Shown piece by piece: positions 522-64,000 of a stretch of DNA of 64,000 nucleotides. Source of the DNA: Malaciobacter halophilus (GTDB lineage Bacteria; Campylobacterota; Campylobacteria; Campylobacterales; Arcobacteraceae). Position 1 is the first letter of the stretch. Each line of letters opens with the position of its first letter. A model generated the notes under the pieces. It had not been told where the DNA came from. It searched no databases and worked only from the letters and a program-made list of their open reading frames with translations. Position numbers and translations under genes: made by a program. The stretch lies in NCBI RefSeq assembly GCF_002837275.1, contig NZ_NXIF01000008.1, positions 1-64,000 on the forward strand. The letters run 5' to 3'.

Positions 522-1613
522 TTGTATTCTAAAGAACTGAATTCTATAAAAAAATCTAATCGTTTTAGGACAAGAGAGATTTTTGATGAAAACCTAATTG
601 ATTTAGCCTCTAATGATTATTTAGGTTTAACTACAAATAAACAACTTTTTGAAAATGCTTACAAAAGAGTTTTAGAAGAGAACTACACAGGCCCTAAAGC
701 TTCACAACTTGTAAATGGTTACAATAAAATACACAAAGAGTTTGAGACTCTACTTTGCAAAGCAAATGGATTTGAAGATGCAATAACTGTTGGTTCTGGA
801 TTTTTAGCAAATATCTCACTTATTGAAGCCTTAGTTAGAAAAAAAGATAGACTTTTTATTGATGAGCAATACCATGCAAGTGGGATTTTGGCTACTAAAC
901 TTTTAGATAAAAATCAAATAATTACTTTTAAACACAACGATATAGAAGATTTAAAAAATAAATTTAATCAGTTTTCAACTAATAGAAATATCATAGCAAT
1001 TGAAGGAATTTACTCAATGCAAGGAGATATAGCTTCTAAAGAAATTTTTGATTTTGCAGATGAAAAAGAAGCTTTATTAATTGTTGATGAAGCTCATTCA
1101 AGCGGTGTAATTGGAGAGAATTTATTAGGAGTTTTTGATTATTATAAAATTAAACCAAAAAACAATCATATAAAAATGGGAACGCTTGGAAAAGCTTATG
1201 GAAGTTATGGAGCATATATTTTAAGTAGTTCTCATATTATTAGTTATCTACAAAACAGAGCAAAGGCAATCATATATACAACAGCTCCTTCTCTTTTTGA
1301 TATATCCTTAGCTTTACAATCTTTAAAATATATTTTAAGCAATAAACTAAGTTTAAAATCTTCAATAAAAGAAAAACTTGATATAGTAAAAGATATTTTA
1401 GGTATTCAATCAAATAGTTTAATTATCCCTATTGATATTGCAGATAATAAAAAAGTTTTAGCAATTCAGCAAGAGCTTAAAAAGCAAGGATATTTAGTAG
1501 GAGCAATTCGTCAACCAACAGTAACAAGTGCAATTATAAGATTAATTGCAAAAATTGATATAAGTAAACAAGATTTAAAACTTGTATGTAACTTTTTAAA
1601 GGAGAATAGATGA
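522..1613 (+). CDS. bioF: 8-amino-7-oxononanoate synthase-like PLP acyltransferase
   Basis: Member of the alpha-oxoamine synthase family (BioF/KBL). BioF condenses pimeloyl-ACP or -CoA with alanine to make KAPA for biotin synthesis in the cytoplasm. Visible marks are the cofactor-contacting Asp189 and His192 in IVDEAHSSG and the Schiff-base Lys224 in TLGKAYGSYG. The length of 363 aa is slightly short of the usual ~385. The start is TTG at 522, supported by AGGAG at 512-516. The stop overlaps the next start as ATGA, so the genes are translationally coupled. No other biotin gene is adjacent, so BioF specificity rests on similarity; another alpha-oxoamine synthase activity is possible. Confidence 0.8.
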   Translation: MYSKELNSIKKSNRFRTREIFDENLIDLASNDYLGLTTNKQLFENAYKRVLEENYTGPKASQLVNGYNKIHKEFETLLCKANGFEDAITVGSGFLANISLIEALVRKKDRLFIDEQYHASGILATKLLDKNQIITFKHNDIEDLKNKFNQFSTNRNIIAIEGIYSMQGDIASKEIFDFADEKEALLIVDEAHSSGVIGENLLGVFDYYKIKPKNNHIKMGTLGKAYGSYGAYILSSSHIISYLQNRAKAIIYTTAPSLFDISLALQSLKYILSNKLSLKSSIKEKLDIVKDILGIQSNSLIIPIDIADNKKVLAIQQELKKQGYLVGAIRQPTVTSAIIRLIAKIDISKQDLKLVCNFLKENR

Positions 1614-1849
1614 AGAAAATAGTTTTATTGTGTTTTTTCACACTTTTTGCATACTCCAATGATAATACTTTACAGCCAAAAAAATGTGAAGTTATAAAAC
1701 TTTCAAATTACACAACATTAGTTTCTTGTCACAAACTTGATTATATAGTTCAAACAAAACAATCAAGAAGAGATGATGAAGATAATATTAAAAAGATTAC
1801 TGTTTTAACTAAACAAGAGAGCAAAATCATATTAAATAAGAGAGATTAA
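1610..1849 (+). CDS. Small exported protein of unknown function
   Basis: A 79-aa protein with an N-terminal signal-like segment (MKKIVLLCFFTLFAYS), so probably periplasmic. The remaining ~60 residues are basic and hold two cysteines (KKCEVIK and VSCHK) that could form a disulfide. It overlaps the bioF-like stop by four bases and ends one base before the carbonic anhydrase start, so it sits inside one operon. I recognise no family. Confidence 0.7.
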   Translation: MKKIVLLCFFTLFAYSNDNTLQPKKCEVIKLSNYTTLVSCHKLDYIVQTKQSRRDDEDNIKKITVLTKQESKIILNKRD

Positions 1850-1850
1850 C

Positions 1851-2501
1851 ATGAAAGAATTAATTAAAGGTAATAAAAGGTTTAGAGAAAAAAAATTCCC
1901 TCAATTAAAAAAGAGTGTAGAAAAACTTGTAAAAGAGGGACAAAAACCTGAAGTTTTGTTTATAGGGTGTTCAGATAGCAGAGTTACTCCTGATATAATG
2001 CTAGATGTAAATCCAGGTGATATGTTTATTTTAAGAAATGTTGGAAACTTTGTTCCTCCATTTAAATGTGATGAAGATTATCATGGTAGTGCAGCTGCAA
2101 TTGAGTATGCAGTATCTGTACTTGAAGTTAAGCATATTATTGTTTGTGGACATTCACATTGTGGTGCTTGTCAAAGTTTATATACAGAAATTCCTTTAGA
2201 AAAACAAAAAGTTATTCATGTTAAAAAATGGCTTGAACTTGGTGCAAAAGCAAAAGAGAAAACATTAAGCTTAGTAAAAGATCCAAATAACAAAGAAGAG
2301 TTATATAGACTTACTGAAAAAATATCTGTAACATATCAATTAAAGAACTTATTAACTTATCCTGATGTAAAAAGAAGAATAGAAAATGGAAGTTTACAAA
2401 TACATGGATGGTATTATAAACTAGAAGATGGTTCAATTGATTGTTATGATCAAGAAGCAGAAAGATTTAAAAGTTTAGAAGAGTGTGTAAATGCAAAATG
2501 A
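1851..2501 (+). CDS. can: Beta-class carbonic anhydrase
   Basis: Zinc enzyme interconverting CO2 and bicarbonate, supplying bicarbonate for carboxylations and pH control. The beta-class signature is complete: Cys40, Asp42 and Arg44 in CSDSR, then His101 and Cys104 in HSHCGAC. The length of 216 aa is normal for the family. No signal peptide is seen, so it is cytoplasmic. It lies one base after the small exported protein and overlaps the next gene by 11 bases, so it belongs to the bioF-mqnE operon. Confidence 0.93.
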   Translation: MKELIKGNKRFREKKFPQLKKSVEKLVKEGQKPEVLFIGCSDSRVTPDIMLDVNPGDMFILRNVGNFVPPFKCDEDYHGSAAAIEYAVSVLEVKHIIVCGHSHCGACQSLYTEIPLEKQKVIHVKKWLELGAKAKEKTLSLVKDPNNKEELYRLTEKISVTYQLKNLLTYPDVKRRIENGSLQIHGWYYKLEDGSIDCYDQEAERFKSLEECVNAK

Positions 2502-2808
2502 TGTAAGAAAACTACCTAAAAAAAGTAAAATAATAATCGTAGTTTTAGCTCTACTTGCTATCATATGCTTTTTATTATTAACTTACTTAAAAGAGTTAAA
2601 AATCACAGGGATTTTAAACTCTCTTGGCTATAAACAAATTAGCAATGTAACAGTTATAAATAAATTAAGTGTTGAAAACAAGGAGACTAGAAAAAAAGGG
2701 ACTGTATATAAAGTTCTTTTTAATAATGATAAAACAAATCAAGAGTGTATTGGTTTTTTACATAAAGATAGTTCAGACCAGTACTATGAAGATTTTGATT
2801 GTAAATAG
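2491..2808 (+). CDS. Small single-pass membrane protein, unknown
   Basis: A 105-aa protein with one hydrophobic segment at about residues 13-34 after a basic N-terminus. This suggests an inner-membrane anchor with a ~70-residue periplasmic tail. The tail holds a cysteine pair (NQECIG near residue 86 and DFDCK at the C-terminus) and is lysine-rich. The start lies inside the carbonic anhydrase gene (11-base overlap) and mqnE begins nine bases after the stop, so it is cotranscribed. I recognise no family. Confidence 0.7.
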   Translation: MQNDVRKLPKKSKIIIVVLALLAIICFLLLTYLKELKITGILNSLGYKQISNVTVINKLSVENKETRKKGTVYKVLFNNDKTNQECIGFLHKDSSDQYYEDFDCK

Positions 2809-2817
2809 TAGGAATAA

Positions 2818-3879
2818 ATGGATATATTAAAAAAATTAGAAAATAACGAGAGATTAAATTACGAAGATGCAATTAAACTTTATGACTTAGATTTTTTTGA
2901 ACTTGCATATTATGCGAATAGAATTAGAGAAGATAAACACGGTAAAAAAACATATTTTAATATAAATAGACATATAAACCCAACAAATATTTGTAAAGAT
3001 GTTTGTCAATTCTGTGCTTATAGTGCAAGTAGAAAAAATCCAAACCCATATACAATGAGTCATGAAGAGATATTAGATGTAGTTGAAAACTCATCTAAAA
3101 ATGGTATAAAAGAGGTACATATAGTATCAGCTCATAACCCAGATACTGGTTTACAATGGTATTTAGATGTTTTTAAAAAAATAAAACAAAAATTTCCATC
3201 AATTCATGTAAAAGCTTTAACAGCAGCAGAAATTCATTTCTTAGCAACACAATATAACTTAAGTTATGAAGATATTATAAATAAAATGCTTGAACATGGT
3301 GTTGATTCAATGCCAGGAGGTGGGGCTGAAATTTTTGATGAGAAAGTAAGAAAAAGAGTTTGTGGAGGAAAAGTTACTTCCCAACAATGGCTTGATATTC
3401 ATAAACTTTGGCACAAAAATGGAAAACATAGTAATGCAACAATGCTATTTGGTCACATAGAAACAAGAGAACACAGAGTTGACCATATGCTAAGACTAAG
3501 AGATTTACAAGATGAAACAGGAGGCTTTAATGCCTTTATTCCCTTAGTATTTCAAACAAAAAATAACTATTTAAAAGTAAAAGAAGCAATAACAGGTCAA
3601 GAGATATTAAAAACTTATGCTATTGCAAGAATTTTACTTGATAATATTCCAAATATTAAAGCATATTGGGCAACATCAACAGTAAAATTAGCTTTAATAG
3701 CTCAAGAGTTTGGAGCAAATGACTTAGATGGAACAATTGAAAAAGAGTCTATTCAAAGTGCAGCAGGAGCACAAAGTGCCCATGGTGTACAAGTACAACA
3801 GTTTGTTGATTTAATTAAAAACTCTGGTTTTACTCCTGTTGAAAGAGATTCAGTTTATAATGAATTAAAAGTTTGGTAA
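2818..3879 (+). CDS. mqnE: Aminofutalosine synthase MqnE
   Basis: Radical SAM enzyme that joins a chorismate-derived enolpyruvyl ether to SAM in the futalosine route to menaquinone. The CX3CX2C motif for the 4Fe-4S cluster is at Cys59, Cys63 and Cys66. The block TMLFGHIETREHR followed by LQDETGGF is typical of MqnE; the paralogue MqnC usually reads MMFGH. The length of 353 aa is normal. Menaquinone is the quinone that feeds reductases such as the PsrABC encoded at 24901-28745. It is the last gene of its operon. Confidence 0.9.
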   Translation: MDILKKLENNERLNYEDAIKLYDLDFFELAYYANRIREDKHGKKTYFNINRHINPTNICKDVCQFCAYSASRKNPNPYTMSHEEILDVVENSSKNGIKEVHIVSAHNPDTGLQWYLDVFKKIKQKFPSIHVKALTAAEIHFLATQYNLSYEDIINKMLEHGVDSMPGGGAEIFDEKVRKRVCGGKVTSQQWLDIHKLWHKNGKHSNATMLFGHIETREHRVDHMLRLRDLQDETGGFNAFIPLVFQTKNNYLKVKEAITGQEILKTYAIARILLDNIPNIKAYWATSTVKLALIAQEFGANDLDGTIEKESIQSAAGAQSAHGVQVQQFVDLIKNSGFTPVERDSVYNELKVW

Positions 3880-56413: not shown

Positions 56414-56794
<381 letters not shown>

Positions 56795-56836
56795 TTAAAT
56801 TAAAATTATCTTAAACTTTCAATATCCTAAAGGATA

Positions 56837-58024
56837 TTAAAAAGCTCTTTTAAATTCAGGATATGCTTCAAGTCCACACTCTTCAACATCTAATCCTTGC
56901 ATCTCTTCATCACTATGTGCTCTTAATTCTACTATTTTATTTAAAAAAAATAAAACAATATAAGAGATTACAAAAGCGAAAACTCCTATAACAACTACAC
57001 CTTTTAATTGTCCTAAAAAAGTTATACTTTCGCCATTACTTGCAAAAATACCAACAGCTAATGTTCCCCAAACTCCATTTACTAAATGAACAGATAAAGC
57101 ACCAACTGGGTCATCAATTCTTAATTTATCAAAAAAAGATACTGCAAATACAACTAATGCACCGCCAATTGCTCCAATTAATATAGGCACATAAATATTA
57201 TATAAATCAGGTCCAGCTGTAATTGCTACTAGCCCTCCTAAAGCACCATTTAATATCATAGTCAAATCTAGTTTTGAATACTTTATATACATAATTATAG
57301 AAACCATTATAGCTCCTGCTAAACCTGCTGTATTTGTATTCATTATAGTAAGAGCAACTGCATTAGCACTCTCTTTACTAGAGATTGAACCAACACTTCC
57401 ACCATTAAATCCAAACCATCCAATCCATAATAAAAGAGCCCCTAAAGTTACTAAAGGAATATTTGAAGCTGGAATTACTCTAACTCCTCCTGTTTTTGGG
57501 TATCTTCCTTTTCTATTTCCAATGATTAAAATTGCTGCAAGAAGTGCCCATCCTCCTGTACTATGAATTACAGTTGAACCAGCTAAATCATACATACTTA
57601 AATTTAATATTGTTCCTTCTAAAAAGTTTGCTCCCCATGTAATATTAACTACTAAAGGGTATATAACTGATGCCATAATAACAGTAAAAAAGGCTAAAGG
57701 AATAACCTTTGCTCTTTCACTAACTCCACCACTCATAATATTGATAACTTTTCCAACAAATGCCATTTGAAATAAAAAAGCTGCCCATTTACTCATACTA
57801 TCACTTCCAAAATCACCAAATGCTATTGAATAGCCAAATAGTAAAAATGCCAAAGAAGCAACTGCATAAATTAAAGTATTAATTGTTAATACTGCTGTAA
57901 CATTCTTAGTTCTTACAAGTCCTGCTTCAAGCATAGCAAAACCAGGAACCATAAAGATAATTAATACCATTGCAAAAATTGCAAAAAAAGTATCTAGTAC
58001 ATAAGGAATTGATTCAAGTTCCAT
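56837..58024 (-). CDS. amtB: Ammonium transporter AmtB (copy 1)
   Basis: A 395-aa inner-membrane ammonium channel with 11 helices. The twin histidines are in STVIHSTGGW and LSVHLVNGVWG, and the start is MVPGFAMLEAGLVRTKN. The C-terminal tail EECGLEAYPEF is the PII-controlled segment. It has no cleavable signal peptide. It has its own -10 box at 58058-58063. Confidence 0.95.
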   Translation of the reverse strand: MELESIPYVLDTFFAIFAMVLIIFMVPGFAMLEAGLVRTKNVTAVLTINTLIYAVASLAFLLFGYSIAFGDFGSDSMSKWAAFLFQMAFVGKVINIMSGGVSERAKVIPLAFFTVIMASVIYPLVVNITWGANFLEGTILNLSMYDLAGSTVIHSTGGWALLAAILIIGNRKGRYPKTGGVRVIPASNIPLVTLGALLLWIGWFGFNGGSVGSISSKESANAVALTIMNTNTAGLAGAIMVSIIMYIKYSKLDLTMILNGALGGLVAITAGPDLYNIYVPILIGAIGGALVVFAVSFFDKLRIDDPVGALSVHLVNGVWGTLAVGIFASNGESITFLGQLKGVVVIGVFAFVISYIVLFFLNKIVELRAHSDEEMQGLDVEECGLEAYPEFKRAF

Positions 58025-58057
58025 TATATTGTCCTCTCAATGATTTTTATTAGAACA

Positions 58058-58063
58058 ATTATA
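58058..58063 (-). promoter_or_regulatory. -10 box of amtB copy 1
   Basis: Minus-strand TATAAT 34 bases before the ATG; GAGGA is at the normal place. It lies downstream of the terminator at 58119-58145, so the two amtB-glnK pairs are separate units. Confidence 0.5.
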
Positions 58064-58118
58064 ATAAGAAATTTAAAAGTAGAGCTATTTTTTTTGTATA
58101 TATTTTATACAATTGTTT

Positions 58119-58145
58119 AAAAAGAGGCATAAGTTGCCCCTTTTT
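58119..58145 (-). terminator. Terminator after glnK copy 2
   Basis: AAAAAGAGGC pairs with GCCCCTTTTT with one mismatch, loop ATAAGTT, followed by T-rich sequence on the minus strand. Confidence 0.65.
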
Positions 58146-58146
58146 A

Positions 58147-58488
<342 letters not shown>

Positions 58489-58503
58489 TTAATCCTTTAC
58501 TTT

Positions 58504-59718
58504 TTAGGCTCTTTTAAATTCAGGATAAGCTTCTAATCCTGTTTCATGAATATCTAAACCATTTACCTCTGTCTCTTCATCAACTCTTAACCCAATTACT
58601 AAATCAAGAATCTTCCAAACAATAAATGATGTAACAAATACGAAGATACCAATTACTACTACACCTTTAACTTGTGCTATAAAAGAAACATCTGGATTAA
58701 AAATTCCCACAGCTAAAGTTCCCCATATACCAGCAACTAAGTGAACAGAAAGAGCACCAACTGGGTCATCAATTTTTAATTTATCCCATAAAGGAACAGC
58801 TATTACTACTAATGCACCACCAACAATTCCTTCAATAAAAGATACAACCATTCCTAAATCTGGACCTGCTGTTACAGAAACAAGTCCTGCTAATGCACCA
58901 TTTAAAACCATAGTTAAATCTACTTTTTTATAGATAAATTGAGTTAATAATGCAGCAGCAATAGCACCTGCACAAGCTGCCATATTTGTATCAGCAATAA
59001 CTAAAGCTATTCCATCAATATCTGCTTTACTTCCTAAAGCTAGTTGTGAACCACCATTAAATCCAAACCATCCCATCCATAAAATAAATGTACCAAGTGT
59101 TGCTAAAGTTAAATTTGAACCTGGAATTGGTCTTACATTTCCATTCTTATCATATTTTCCTTTTCTAGCCCCAAGGATTAAAACTCCAGCAAGTGCAGCC
59201 CATCCACCAACTGAGTGTACTATTGTTGAACCAGCAAAATCAGAAAAACCTGATAAAACTCCACCTAATTCACTTCCACCCCAAGTCCAATGACCTTGAA
59301 TAGGATAAATAACACCACTTAAAATAACTACAAATATTAAAAAAGGCCATAATTTCATTCTTTCTGCAATCGTACCTGAAATTACTGATGCTGCTGTTGC
59401 AACAAATACTACTTGGAAAAAGAAATCTGCCATTACTGGGTATCCCATAGCTTCATTTGTTTTACCTGAAAGCATTGCTCCACTACCAATAAATGATGAA
59501 CCCTCTCCATACATAAAGTTATATCCTACAAAATAGAACATAATGCAAGATATTGCAAATAACGCAATATTTTTTGTAAGTACTGTTGCATTATTTTTTG
59601 TTCTTGTAAGACCAGCCTCTAACATAGCAAAACCCGCTGCCATCCACATAACAAGAATTCCTGCAAATACAAACAAGAACCCGTCTAATATATATTTTAC
59701 ATCTGCAAAATTTTCCAT
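58504..59718 (-). CDS. amtB: Ammonium transporter AmtB (copy 2)
   Basis: A 404-aa paralogue of amtB copy 1, with twin-histidine blocks STIVHSVGGW and LSVHLVAGIWG and a PII-controlled tail (ETGLEAYPEFKRA). The true start is ATG at 59718 with AAAGGAGA in front; the open frame continues upstream to 59922 but without coding character. Compared with copy 1 it has an insertion after helix 2 (GEGSSFIGSGAM). Confidence 0.95.
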   Translation of the reverse strand: MENFADVKYILDGFLFVFAGILVMWMAAGFAMLEAGLTRTKNNATVLTKNIALFAISCIMFYFVGYNFMYGEGSSFIGSGAMLSGKTNEAMGYPVMADFFFQVVFVATAASVISGTIAERMKLWPFLIFVVILSGVIYPIQGHWTWGGSELGGVLSGFSDFAGSTIVHSVGGWAALAGVLILGARKGKYDKNGNVRPIPGSNLTLATLGTFILWMGWFGFNGGSQLALGSKADIDGIALVIADTNMAACAGAIAAALLTQFIYKKVDLTMVLNGALAGLVSVTAGPDLGMVVSFIEGIVGGALVVIAVPLWDKLKIDDPVGALSVHLVAGIWGTLAVGIFNPDVSFIAQVKGVVVIGIFVFVTSFIVWKILDLVIGLRVDEETEVNGLDIHETGLEAYPEFKRA

Positions 59719-59745: not shown

Positions 59746-59751
59746 AGTATA
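59746..59751 (-). promoter_or_regulatory. Probable -10 box of amtB copy 2
   Basis: Minus-strand TATACT 28 bases before the ATG. No GG-N10-GC element is visible. Confidence 0.4.
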
Positions 59752-59932
59752 AAATATATAATTTTTTTTGTAAATAGGAGAACTGTCTATTTTATATACA
59801 AGATTTGCTATATTTTTTATACATTGACAAATATGACTATTTCTTGTAAACTTTTTATTTAAACACATTAAATATACAATTGAATAGTTTTTATACAACT
59901 TTTGCAACACTATTGCTGCCATATTTTAGTAC

Positions 59933-59960: not shown

Positions 59961-60821
59961 ATGAGAGAGTTTTTAGAAGTTTATGAAGAAAATCAAGAAA
60001 AAATTGACTACTTTATACAAGAGAGCTTAAAAAATATTGGAAAGCTATCTGCACATAAAAAGTTAAACTTTACACAACTGTTTAATCTTTTTCCATCATT
60101 AGAATTAGTATATATTGTTGATAGTAATACAAAGTGTCAAATATCTGAAGATATATATAAGTATAAAGCAGATAGTAAAGGAAAAGATAAAGATAGGTCT
60201 CACCTTATTTCAAAACTTGAATTAAAAAATAATCATATGGCATTTTCAAAACCATATATAAGTAGTGCAACTAGAAACAATTGTATAACTGTATCTATTA
60301 AAGAAGATGATGAGATTATATTTTTAGATTTTAGATTAGATATTTTACTTGAAAAACTAAATCTTATTGAACTTCATAAACCTTTTCACAGTATAACAAA
60401 AGCTTTTTATTTGTTTGTTGGTTTTTCAATGATTGCTCTTGCAACAATAACAATTATATTCTCTTTATATGACTTTGTTGTTTATTTATTTAAAAATCAA
60501 GATATAAAGCTTGAATCTATGTTTAAACCAATTATTGCACTTACTTTAGGAATGGCAATTTTTGATTTAGCAAAAACTATTTTAGAACAAGAAGTATTTT
60601 TCAAATCTTATGCTAAAAACTCTAAAATTGAAACAAAAATGATAACAAAATTTTTAATTACTATTATTATTGCTTTATCAATTGAAGCTTTAATTGTTGT
60701 ATTTAAGATTGCTATTAATGGCTATGACCAAATGATAAATGCCTTATATTTAATTACTGGAGTATCTATTATCTTAGTAGCTTTAGCAATTTTTATATAT
60801 TTTGCAAAAAAGAAAAAGTAA
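59961..60821 (+). CDS. PDC-like domain protein with four C-terminal membrane helices
   Basis: A 286-aa protein. Residues 1-145 look like a PDC/Cache-type sensor (LELVYIVDSNTKCQIS, KPYISSATRNNCITVSI). Then come four membrane helices at about 155-180, 192-212, 228-252 and 260-281. The soluble part has no preceding membrane helix or signal, so it may be cytoplasmic, unlike usual Cache sensors. ATG at 59961 is set by the Shine-Dalgarno. It is followed after ten bases by the NtrC-like gene and then glnD. Function unknown; nitrogen-related sensing is a guess from position. Confidence 0.65.
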   Translation: MREFLEVYEENQEKIDYFIQESLKNIGKLSAHKKLNFTQLFNLFPSLELVYIVDSNTKCQISEDIYKYKADSKGKDKDRSHLISKLELKNNHMAFSKPYISSATRNNCITVSIKEDDEIIFLDFRLDILLEKLNLIELHKPFHSITKAFYLFVGFSMIALATITIIFSLYDFVVYLFKNQDIKLESMFKPIIALTLGMAIFDLAKTILEQEVFFKSYAKNSKIETKMITKFLITIIIALSIEALIVVFKIAINGYDQMINALYLITGVSIILVALAIFIYFAKKKK

Positions 60822-60831
60822 AGGATAAAAT

Positions 60832-61584
60832 ATGGAAGAGTTTATAGCAGCCTCACCAAACTCAAAAGAGATTTTAAACTCAGCAAAACTTTTACAAGCT
60901 GTAAATATTCATGCACTTATTTATGGTGATATAGGAGTAGGTAAAAAAACTCTAGCAAAGTTTATTTCGCCAGAAGCTAGAGTTTTCTCATGCCATGAAC
61001 TTCAAAAAGATATTATTGATAAAGTCATAAATATTGAAAAACAAACCATTATTATAAAAAAAGTAGAAGAGATTACAAATATAGATTTAATTCTAAATTG
61101 GGTTGAAAAAAATGAGATTAGAGTTATTGCTACAACACAAGCAAAAACTCTAAATAGTAAATTAAATGATATTTTTTCTATCACACTTTCAATTCCTCCT
61201 TTATCCAAAAGAGAAGAGGACTTAAAACTATTAACTCAAAAGTTTTCAAATGAAGCAAGCAAAGTGCTTAGAACTGAAAAAATTTTACCTTCAAAACTTA
61301 TGTTAAATACTAGTAAAAATGCTCATAGTTTAAGAAAATCCATCTACTTTTCTTATCTTTTTGAAACAGTAGGAGAAGATGAAATTTTAATGTTTTTAGA
61401 GAATTTTATGCTTACTAATTTAGAAGGAGAGAACTCTTACAAAGATTTTGTATATCTTTTTGAAGTTCCTTTATTAAAAGCTGCTAAAAAAAAGTATAAA
61501 TCGCAAGTACAAATGGCTAAACATTTAGGTTTAAACAGAATTACACTTAGAAAAAAACTTGAAATTCACAAAGAGTTATTATGA
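60832..61584 (+). CDS. Degenerate NtrC-like protein with Fis-type HTH
   Basis: A 250-aa protein built like a shortened NtrC-family regulator. Walker A is GDIGVGKKTLAKF (about 33-45). The Walker B region reads IIIKKVEEI, lacking the acidic pair; no GAFTGA loop is present. A Fis-type helix-turn-helix closes the protein (QVQMAKHLGLNRITLRKKL). It has no receiver domain. It should bind DNA but cannot activate sigma-54 in the classical way. Its stop overlaps the glnD start as ATGA, which ties it to nitrogen control. Confidence 0.75.
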   Translation: MEEFIAASPNSKEILNSAKLLQAVNIHALIYGDIGVGKKTLAKFISPEARVFSCHELQKDIIDKVINIEKQTIIIKKVEEITNIDLILNWVEKNEIRVIATTQAKTLNSKLNDIFSITLSIPPLSKREEDLKLLTQKFSNEASKVLRTEKILPSKLMLNTSKNAHSLRKSIYFSYLFETVGEDEILMFLENFMLTNLEGENSYKDFVYLFEVPLLKAAKKKYKSQVQMAKHLGLNRITLRKKLEIHKELL

Positions 61585-64000
61585 ATGAATTTAATCTTAA
61601 TGAAGTAAATTTAAAAGTAGAAGAGTTAATCTCAAACAATGCAAGTGATTTTGAGATTTCAAAAGTATTTAAAAATCATATAAAAGAGTACAAAAAATCA
61701 ATTGACTCAATACTTGATACAACAGGTGGAAAAGATTTTTTTGTTAAAAATACAAAACATACAGATAAATTTTTAACCTCTTTATACAAATATATTCTAA
61801 GAAAACATTTTGGCTCTTATCAGCCTATGAGTACATCTATTCCTATTACTTTAATTGCCCTTGGAAGCTATGGAAGAGAACAACTTTGCATCTATTCTGA
61901 TATTGATTTAATGATTCTTTATGAGGATATAAAAGGATATAATTTAAAAGAGATTATGGAAGATTTTATTACTCTTGCTTGGGATTGTGGATTAAAACTA
62001 GGTTCAAGAGTTCATGAGTTAAATGAGATTGAACAAGCTGTTAAAGAAGATATTACAATAAAAACATCAATTATTGAATCAAGGGTTATTTATGGTTCAA
62101 AATATCTTTGGTATGCTTATGAAAATGCTTTAAATAGTATTAGAAAAACAGATATAAAAGATTTTGTTATTGAAAAATTAGAAGAACATAAACAAAGACT
62201 TTTAAAATATCCTTTAAAAATGGAGCCAAATATTAAAGATGGTTATGGAGGTCTTAGAGAATCAAATATGATATCTTGGATGGCATATATTCTTTATGGC
62301 ACACAAAACACAAAAGAGCTAATAGGTAAAGAGATAACAGAAGAAGAACATAAGGTATATAGAAGCTCTTTAGAGTATATTTTTCAAGTAAGAAATGCCC
62401 TTCACAATATCTCAAAAAGAAAACTAGATGTTGTAAATTTTGATGTATTACCAGAATTAAGTTCAAAGCTAGGTTTTACAAATAAACCAAGATATACAAA
62501 AGAGAGACAATGTATGTCTAAACTTCTAGCTTCACTTCATAATATTCATTTTTTCTCTACAATTATGGTTAAAAAATTTGCAAGAATACTTTTAAATGAA
62601 AAAACATCTGTAAATCTTATCAAAAGTTCAAGACTAAAGAAAAATCTATTTTTTGATAAAGGTAAAATTTATACCTCTTTTCATAGGAAAGCTATTGGAC
62701 TAAATGCCTTGCTTAAAGAACTTATTTCACTACCAAAAGAGGTTAAAGCATTTGATAGGTCATATATATATTTTGCAAGTAAAACAAAACTTCCAACAAA
62801 ACAGAGTAATGAGCTTAAAAAAAACATTAAAACTCTTTTATTAAAAGAGTCTTTATATCCAATAATTAAACTTTTATACAATGCAAAACTTTTTCAAGCA
62901 ATTATTCCAATAACAAAAAAAATCATTAATCAACCACAATTTGATGGCTATCATCAGCACCCCGTTGATATTCACTCAATTAGAACATTAAAGAAAATTG
63001 AAAATATTGAAGATAACTTTATAAAAGAGGTTTATGACTCTTTAACACCTAGTGAAAAATCTATTGCAAAATTAGCAGCTTTATTACATGATGTAGGAAA
63101 AGGAAGAACAGTTGATCACCACTTAGCAGGAGAAAAACTTTTTAAAAATATTACAAGCTCTTTAGATTTTGATAGTAAACAAGTTCAAATGGGAAGCCAA
63201 TTAGTTAGATACCATAATAAAATGAGCGCTTATGCTAAAAATGAAGATATATACTCAGAAAGAATAATCTTAGCTTTCACAGGTATTGTTAAAACAAAAA
63301 CCATGCTTAAGATGCTTTATGTAGTAACATATGCAGATATTTCTGCTGTTGGACAAAATGTATTTAATAGCTCTATTGCTTCTTTATTAAAAGAGCTTTA
63401 TTTACAATCTTTACCAGCATTTGAAAATACAGAATTATTAAAAGAGAGTTCAAGAAGAGTAGCAAAAATAAATACAATAAAAAATCTAAAAAGATATAAA
63501 GAGTTATCAAATCTTATGAAAAGAAAAATCAAATATATCTCTTCAAATCAAATATTTTTAAGATTAAAAGCAGAAGATATTTTAGATATTGCAATTAAAG
63601 CAAAAGATGTAAATAGCTATATTTATAAAATTAAAAATGAAGAACAATTGGTTATTAGAATTATAAGAAAAGACCCTCTAAATTTAGGTTTTTTACTTGG
63701 GAAATTAGAGTTTTTAAATATTTTTAGTATGAATATTTTTAAACTTTATGATGAAAAAAAAGCTTTTGAAATAACTTTTAGTGAAAAAGTTGATAATGCT
63801 GATATTAGATATATTAAACAAATAATTGAGAACTCTTTTGATATGAGTAAAACAACAAAACTAAGAAAACCTATAATAAAGAAAAGTGAAGTGAAAGCAA
63901 ACTGCAATCATAGTCCATACTTAGCTTCTCTTCAAGTTAGAACAAAAGACCAAAAAGGCCTTTTTGCTTATATTGCAAAGATTTTTGATGATTTTGATAT
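61581..64000 (+). CDS. glnD: [Protein-PII] uridylyltransferase/uridylyl-removing enzyme GlnD (3' cut by window)
   Basis: Bifunctional sensor that uridylylates PII under nitrogen limitation and removes UMP under excess. Residues from the sequence: nucleotidyltransferase motif GSYGRE at 95-100 with SDIDL at 106-110; HD domain with His503-Asp504 in LLHDVGKGR; and the beginning of the first ACT domain (SLQVRTKDQKGLFAYIAKIF) near the window end. About 806 codons are present; the family is usually 830-900 aa, so only the C-terminus is missing. It is coupled to the NtrC-like gene by ATGA. Confidence 0.93.
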   Translation, partial: MNEFNLNEVNLKVEELISNNASDFEISKVFKNHIKEYKKSIDSILDTTGGKDFFVKNTKHTDKFLTSLYKYILRKHFGSYQPMSTSIPITLIALGSYGREQLCIYSDIDLMILYEDIKGYNLKEIMEDFITLAWDCGLKLGSRVHELNEIEQAVKEDITIKTSIIESRVIYGSKYLWYAYENALNSIRKTDIKDFVIEKLEEHKQRLLKYPLKMEPNIKDGYGGLRESNMISWMAYILYGTQNTKELIGKEITEEEHKVYRSSLEYIFQVRNALHNISKRKLDVVNFDVLPELSSKLGFTNKPRYTKERQCMSKLLASLHNIHFFSTIMVKKFARILLNEKTSVNLIKSSRLKKNLFFDKGKIYTSFHRKAIGLNALLKELISLPKEVKAFDRSYIYFASKTKLPTKQSNELKKNIKTLLLKESLYPIIKLLYNAKLFQAIIPITKKIINQPQFDGYHQHPVDIHSIRTLKKIENIEDNFIKEVYDSLTPSEKSIAKLAALLHDVGKGRTVDHHLAGEKLFKNITSSLDFDSKQVQMGSQLVRYHNKMSAYAKNEDIYSERIILAFTGIVKTKTMLKMLYVVTYADISAVGQNVFNSSIASLLKELYLQSLPAFENTELLKESSRRVAKINTIKNLKRYKELSNLMKRKIKYISSNQIFLRLKAEDILDIAIKAKDVNSYIYKIKNEEQLVIRIIRKDPLNLGFLLGKLEFLNIFSMNIFKLYDEKKAFEITFSEKVDNADIRYIKQIIENSFDMSKTTKLRKPIIKKSEVKANCNHSPYLASLQVRTKDQKGLFAYIAKIFDDFD

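Follow-up and report, generated by a model that had tools for sequence, protein, structure and literature searches.

A reduced NtrC-like protein of Malaciobacter halophilus as a candidate sigma-70-type regulator of nitrogen assimilation in Arcobacteraceae

Introduction

The E. coli-type NtrB-NtrC pair has a regulon core of glnA, amtB, glnK, gltB, and nifA, and its NtrC box, TGCAC-N7-GTGCA, is a 17-bp odd-centred dyad. In the NifL-NifA system, a sensor consisting of PAS and kinase-like ATPase domains is combined with a receiver-less AAA+ activator and acts through complex formation. VpsR, TyrR, and other GAFTGA-less relatives of the bEBPs are degenerate AAA+ regulators of sigma-70 promoters. 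As well, NtrC proteins devoid of GAFTGA operate at sigma-70 promoters in Rhodobacter capsulatus and Caulobacter, where an NtrC-type AAA+ domain with an L1 deletion is joined to a Fis helix-turn-helix (HTH), and glnA and other nitrogen genes are under sigma-70 control (PMC10274813). The latter proteins keep a receiver, in which phosphorylation of the Asp matters, and are accompanied by a standard NtrB.

The 2007 genome paper on Arcobacter butzleri described homologues of NtrC and NtrB, as well as RpoN, as apparently lacking (PMC2147049), and a large study of NtrC regulons omitted the epsilonproteobacteria because orthologues of the target factors were absent (PMC5343134). A literature search of open-licence papers returned no named nitrogen regulator for Campylobacterota or the Arcobacter group. 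Here, we describe a reduced NtrC-like protein from a 64,000-nucleotide stretch of the Malaciobacter halophilus genome (hereafter, the window), which is likely a sigma-70-type regulator of nitrogen assimilation and, most likely, a dimeric DNA-binding activator.

Gene neighbourhood

The window carries an upstream gene, the regulator gene, and glnD in this order, divergent from an amtB-glnK-amtB-glnK array:

56414-56752, minus strand: PII (glnK) copy 2 (P-II, 115.7 bits)
56837-58024, minus strand: amtB2, ammonium transporter
58147-58488, minus strand: PII (glnK) copy 1 (P-II, 119.8 bits)
58504-59718, minus strand: amtB1, ammonium transporter
59961-60821, plus strand: upstream gene ("PDC"), apparently in one operon with the regulator, start from MREF, order conserved with the regulator
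60832-61584, plus strand: reduced NtrC-like regulator (AAA+ domain with neither receiver nor L1/GAFTGA, followed by a Fis-type HTH)
61581-64000, plus strand: glnD (PII uridylyltransferase), overlapping start, continuing beyond the window end (PF08335, 89 bits)

The amtB-glnK pair is thus present twice in tandem (56414-59718), each amtB having its own operator. The upstream gene (286 codons) matched no Pfam or NCBIfam family, and its product is, by sequence, likely a membrane sensor; its order with the regulator is kept in many Arcobacteraceae. The regulator open reading frame encodes 250 amino acids from an ATG start and overlaps the glnD start by 4 bp.

Across Arcobacteraceae, the regulator gene is coupled to glnD or adjoins amtB-glnK. 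In a tree, the regulators fell into three subclades, split by the coupled downstream gene. In the first (PAS-type), this is an NtrB-like PAS gene next to amtB-glnK; in the second, it is fabD, the regulator gene lying between slyD and fabD; in the third, which comprises most Arcobacteraceae and the window, it is glnD. The coupling to glnD in the original prediction is borne out in the window by the 4-bp overlap, but is limited to most Arcobacteraceae, an NtrB-like gene or fabD being found elsewhere. In genomes of one genus (g2) without the regulator, a divergent glnD is immediately preceded by a gene of approximately 642 aa that reads as ankyrin repeats (1301-3229 in locus L069), and a similar ankyrin-repeat-like gene is located upstream of amtB in some carriers of the regulator.

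Domain architecture of the reduced protein

The following features were located in the regulator gene:

60925-60951, plus strand: Walker A, residues G32-T40 (GDIGVGKKT), G32 and G37 being invariant in 59 homologues
61048-61065, plus strand: degenerate Walker B site, residues 73-78 (IIIKKV), from the 59-homologue alignment
61495-61566, plus strand: Fis-type HTH, approximately residues 222-245 (YKSQVQMAKHLGLNRITLRKKLEI)

Residues 5-105 match Sigma54_activ_2 (PF14532) with 25.8 bits, against a Pfam cut-off of 25, while the Fis-type families HTH_50 and HTH_8 were found at residues 200-244, slightly under the Pfam cut-off. According to both Pfam and the predicted structure, the protein begins at the AAA+ domain and has no receiver. 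Profile alignment with a GAFTGA-bearing bEBP (E 3e-15, query residues 5-246) runs through the HTH and sets the GAFTGA segment against a gap that follows residue 63 of the regulator; the loop and the receiver are absent in all relatives inspected or aligned.

The Walker A motif reads G32-D-I-G-V-G-K-K39 in the window's protein, with G32 and G37 invariant in 59/59 homologues and K38 kept in 58, and this conservation suggests nucleotide binding. At the Walker B position, the Asp-Glu pair for ATP hydrolysis is replaced by K76-K77; Asp occurs at position 76 in 27 of the 59 homologues, and the adjacent catalytic Glu (position 77) in only two. No conserved Arg was seen in the R-finger region upon inspection of the homologue and profile alignments. 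The HTH is the best-conserved part of the protein, N235, R236, T238, and LRKK (NR-TLRKK) being invariant in the family.

The AlphaFold model (pLDDT 91.6) has a AAA+ fold of the sigma-54-activator type, with residues 1-180 matching bEBP AAA+ domains. Sigma-54 activators were the best structural matches (NtrC4, Z 17.1, 180 residues, rmsd 2.4), and VpsR was also among the matches (Z 16.0). The AAA+ domain is about 55 residues shorter than those of NtrC1 and NtrC4 and lacks the L1 loop, so that the structural match and the profile alignment rule out a hidden GAFTGA loop. It was proposed earlier that the protein keeps a Walker A and a Fis HTH and has lost GAFTGA, the Walker B acids, and the receiver; all of this was confirmed, and the structural search suggested at that time gave no GAFTGA-like loop. 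Unlike the R. capsulatus and Caulobacter proteins, of which Caulobacter NtrC needs its ATPase residues, the reduced protein has neither a receiver nor the Walker B acids, and it also differs from VpsR and TyrR, which carry N-terminal sensory or receiver domains, in having none.

A conserved operator at nitrogen genes

Footprinting of the amtB/regulator intergenic region, aligned for 22 species (six of the same genus and 16 others), exposed a conserved 17-bp dyad, TGTATA-N5-TATACA. Three copies are present near the regulator:

58095-58111, minus strand: operator O3 (12/12), upstream of amtB2, one of three exact sites in the genome
59784-59800, minus strand: operator O1 (11/12, TGTATA-N5-TAGACA), upstream of amtB1
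59881-59897, plus strand: operator O2 (11/12, TGAATA-N5-TATACA), 80 bp upstream of the regulator-carrying operon

Genome-wide counts cover the exact (12/12) sites. The genome of M. halophilus contains three, located upstream of glnA, amtB2, and a dCache-domain gene; this number, against a control of two, equals chance and is not significant by itself. The locations do not look like chance, and the case is made by location together with comparison. Within the family, carrier genomes have 420 sites in 212.9 Mb (1.97/Mb; control 0.43), whereas non-carrier genomes have 15 in 44.4 Mb (0.34/Mb; control 0.38). Within genus g2, 92 sites were found in 17 carrier genomes vs. one in 14 non-carriers. In the region upstream of glnA, 15 of 16 carriers reach 11-12/12, and none of 13 non-carriers exceeds 9/12.

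The predicted operators precede the genes of a nitrogen regulon, namely glnA and amtB with glnK. Others lie upstream of the regulator gene, of gltB and nifA, and of the genes for a quinohemoprotein amine dehydrogenase and for a pyridine nucleotide-disulphide oxidoreductase, the latter reading as nirB. At amtB, the same operator also occurs in PAS-type carriers, which have a regulator of about 40% identity. In an rpoN-positive genome, a nifA-like gene with a GAF and a full sigma-54 AAA+ domain (locus L224, start 1444, minus strand) has the operator approximately 57 bp upstream, which suggests a cascade into nitrogen fixation. The dCache-domain gene of M. halophilus (locus L204, 1589 onward), preceded by one of the three exact operators in the genome, may encode a nitrogen-linked receptor.

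Most other families of Campylobacterales show no enrichment of the exact operator, which may therefore be confined to Arcobacteraceae and certain relatives of the PAS type. In other Campylobacterales families, the reduced protein is encoded between slyD and fabD in a tolB-pal-slyD-fabD cluster. No such operator was seen in genomes with these fabD-linked homologues, so that their function may differ.

Promoter geometry and the sign of regulation

Phasing was examined in 50 non-redundant sites (sequences <80% identical over 70 bp) upstream of amtB1, amtB2, glnA, gltB, and the regulator operon. In 46 of the 50, the operator is followed at exactly 31 or 32 bp by a hexamer resembling a -10 box, the background being 5.2% per position; since the sampled species are related, the nominal binomial value should not be read as a true probability. 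The operator is centred near -52, upstream of the -35 region, which would be the position expected for a sigma-70 activator. In the window, amtB1 has a -10 box TATACT (59746-59751) 32 bp from O1, with TTTACA at 59769-59774, and amtB2 has TATAAT (58058-58063) 31 bp from O3; at the regulator operon the gap is 35 bp, or 32 bp to a weaker hexamer. These boxes agree with the TATAAT-type promoters anticipated for amtB. No GG-N10-GC is present upstream of amtB1 or amtB2, which rules out a sigma-54 promoter there, and a window-wide -24/-12 scan gave 32 matches vs. 22 expected, none of note at amtB.

Activation is what the promoter position argues for, but none of the sequence results gives the sign of regulation directly, and the sites could in principle mediate repression, of which GAFTGA-less regulators are also capable (PMC10274813). 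That the reduced protein binds these sites as a repressor is nonetheless unlikely, since a site upstream of -35 at a fixed phase of 31-32 bp in 46/50 cases is the usual place of an activator and not of a blocker.

The link from protein to operator, drawn from co-occurrence, position, and dyad geometry, could also be misleading. Slightly less probable than repression is that another factor, for example of the CRP/NtcA type, owns TGTATA-N5-TATACA and that the reduced protein is a co-inherited partner. The losses of the regulator gene are clustered in a few lineages, so another operator-owning regulator might have been lost with it, and NtcA likewise uses a GTA-N8-TAC site at nitrogen genes. However, the 17-bp dyad is odd-centred as NtrC boxes are and CRP-type dyads are not; the regulator gene adjoins operator sites and has one itself; the HTH residues named above are invariant in the regulator family; and two regulator subclades only about 40% identical have the operator in common. 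These points favour operator binding by the reduced protein itself.

Distribution of the regulator and of rpoN

The regulator was found in 81 of 104 Arcobacteraceae genomes and, across Campylobacterales, in 274 of 399 genomes and 66 of 87 sampled genera, so the reduced form predates any recent rpoN loss. No match to the rpoN DNA-binding domain was found in the M. halophilus genome, and other PF00158 AAA+ matches in it are long open reading frames with low scores, none of which was taken as an activator. The absence of sigma-54 from Arcobacter on which the original prediction was built holds for this genome but not for the family, in which rpoN is patchy (33/104 genomes; three of six in the window's genus). 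The reduced protein is present in 32 of the 33 rpoN-positive genomes and in 49 without rpoN, indicating that its reduction was not caused by sigma-54 loss in the lineage. Action as a sigma-70-type regulator, as had been supposed, is supported by the phased operator and -10 box, while the idea of a relic left by recent rpoN loss is ruled out by the 32 rpoN-positive carriers.

A non-functional relic, or a purely protein-binding partner of GlnD or PII with no role at DNA, would explain the loss of Walker B, R-finger, and GAFTGA and the 4-bp overlap with glnD. However, dN/dS of the regulator is 0.03-0.17 within the genus, indicating purifying selection and ruling out a decaying pseudogene, the HTH is the part most strongly conserved, and linkage to glnD is not seen in other lineages, which makes this explanation very improbable. 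That the protein is a true sigma-54 activator whose GAFTGA loop is disguised, for which the nearest fold and the 32 rpoN-positive carriers might speak, is already contradicted by the roughly 55 missing residues with the L1 loop, the 49 carriers without rpoN, and the same operator/-10 layout at amtB1 in three rpoN-positive sister species, and is most improbable. For M. halophilus itself, action with sigma-54 is at odds with the lack of an rpoN match and with operators phased to a sigma-70 -10 box.

A putative PAS-ATPase partner and the proposed mechanism

At PAS-type loci, the gene after the regulator encodes an NtrB-like protein of approximately 230 aa. A homologue of this PAS-ATPase protein is located elsewhere in the M. 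halophilus genome, and across Arcobacteraceae its gene is mostly unlinked to the regulator. The two nevertheless co-occur: among the 104 Arcobacteraceae genomes, 80 have both, 22 have neither, and one of each mismatched kind was found. The predicted structure (pLDDT 88) comprises a PAS domain and an ATPase domain separated by about 12 residues, leaving no room for a DHp, so that the DHp histidine of a cognate NtrB is missing. A PDB profile search with the partner gave no match, matches being obtained from the fold search alone; for the ATPase domain, the top match was the catalytic domain of NtrB (1r62, Z 13.9), on a par with other kinases. Because receiver and DHp are both missing, direct contact between regulator and partner is most likely.

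Similar to E. coli-type NtrB-NtrC, the predicted system has the same regulon core, a 17-bp odd-centred dyad, and a partner ATPase closest to NtrB. Unlike it, there is no receiver, DHp, GAFTGA, or sigma-54, and the operator is AT-rich and lies beside the promoter in place of distal enhancers. The missing receiver and DHp, together with the co-occurrence, suggest a phosphotransfer-free complex of the NifL-NifA type, which likewise combines a PAS/ATPase sensor with a receiver-less AAA+ activator, and PDB 9qq6 is among the structural matches of both proteins. However, NifA has kept GAFTGA and acts with sigma-54, the present partner is far shorter, and the predicted regulon is that of general nitrogen assimilation. 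Likeness to sigma-70 activation of the R. capsulatus type is suggested by the promoter geometry.

We propose that a regulator dimer would bind TGTATA-N5-TATACA some 31-32 bp upstream of a sigma-70 -10 box and recruit or stabilise the housekeeping RNA polymerase at amtB-glnK, glnA, gltB, nifA, and its own operon. It would not remodel sigma-54 polymerase, and ATP hydrolysis is probably absent, any role of the nucleotide being presumed from Walker A. The signal would most likely arrive through direct contact with the PAS-ATPase protein, and possibly from PII/GlnD. The pair looks like an NtrB-NtrC pair stripped of phosphotransfer on both sides and working by direct contact. As to its origin, we lean towards an ancient Campylobacterales NtrB-NtrC that lost the DHp, the receiver, and the sigma-54/ATP-hydrolysis machinery, and turned into a nitrogen master regulator of the sigma-70 type that works by direct contact, has an AT-rich operator of its own, and stands above sigma-54-dependent NifA in nitrogen fixers.

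Conclusions

On genomic evidence, a small protein with the appearance of a defective nitrogen regulator very probably serves Arcobacter and its relatives as a functional master switch for the genes of ammonium assimilation. A candidate nitrogen regulator is thereby named for this group, with an operator, a regulon, and a partner that can be tested at the bench. If the proposal is true, both members of a two-component system can lose phosphotransfer and still function as a pair.
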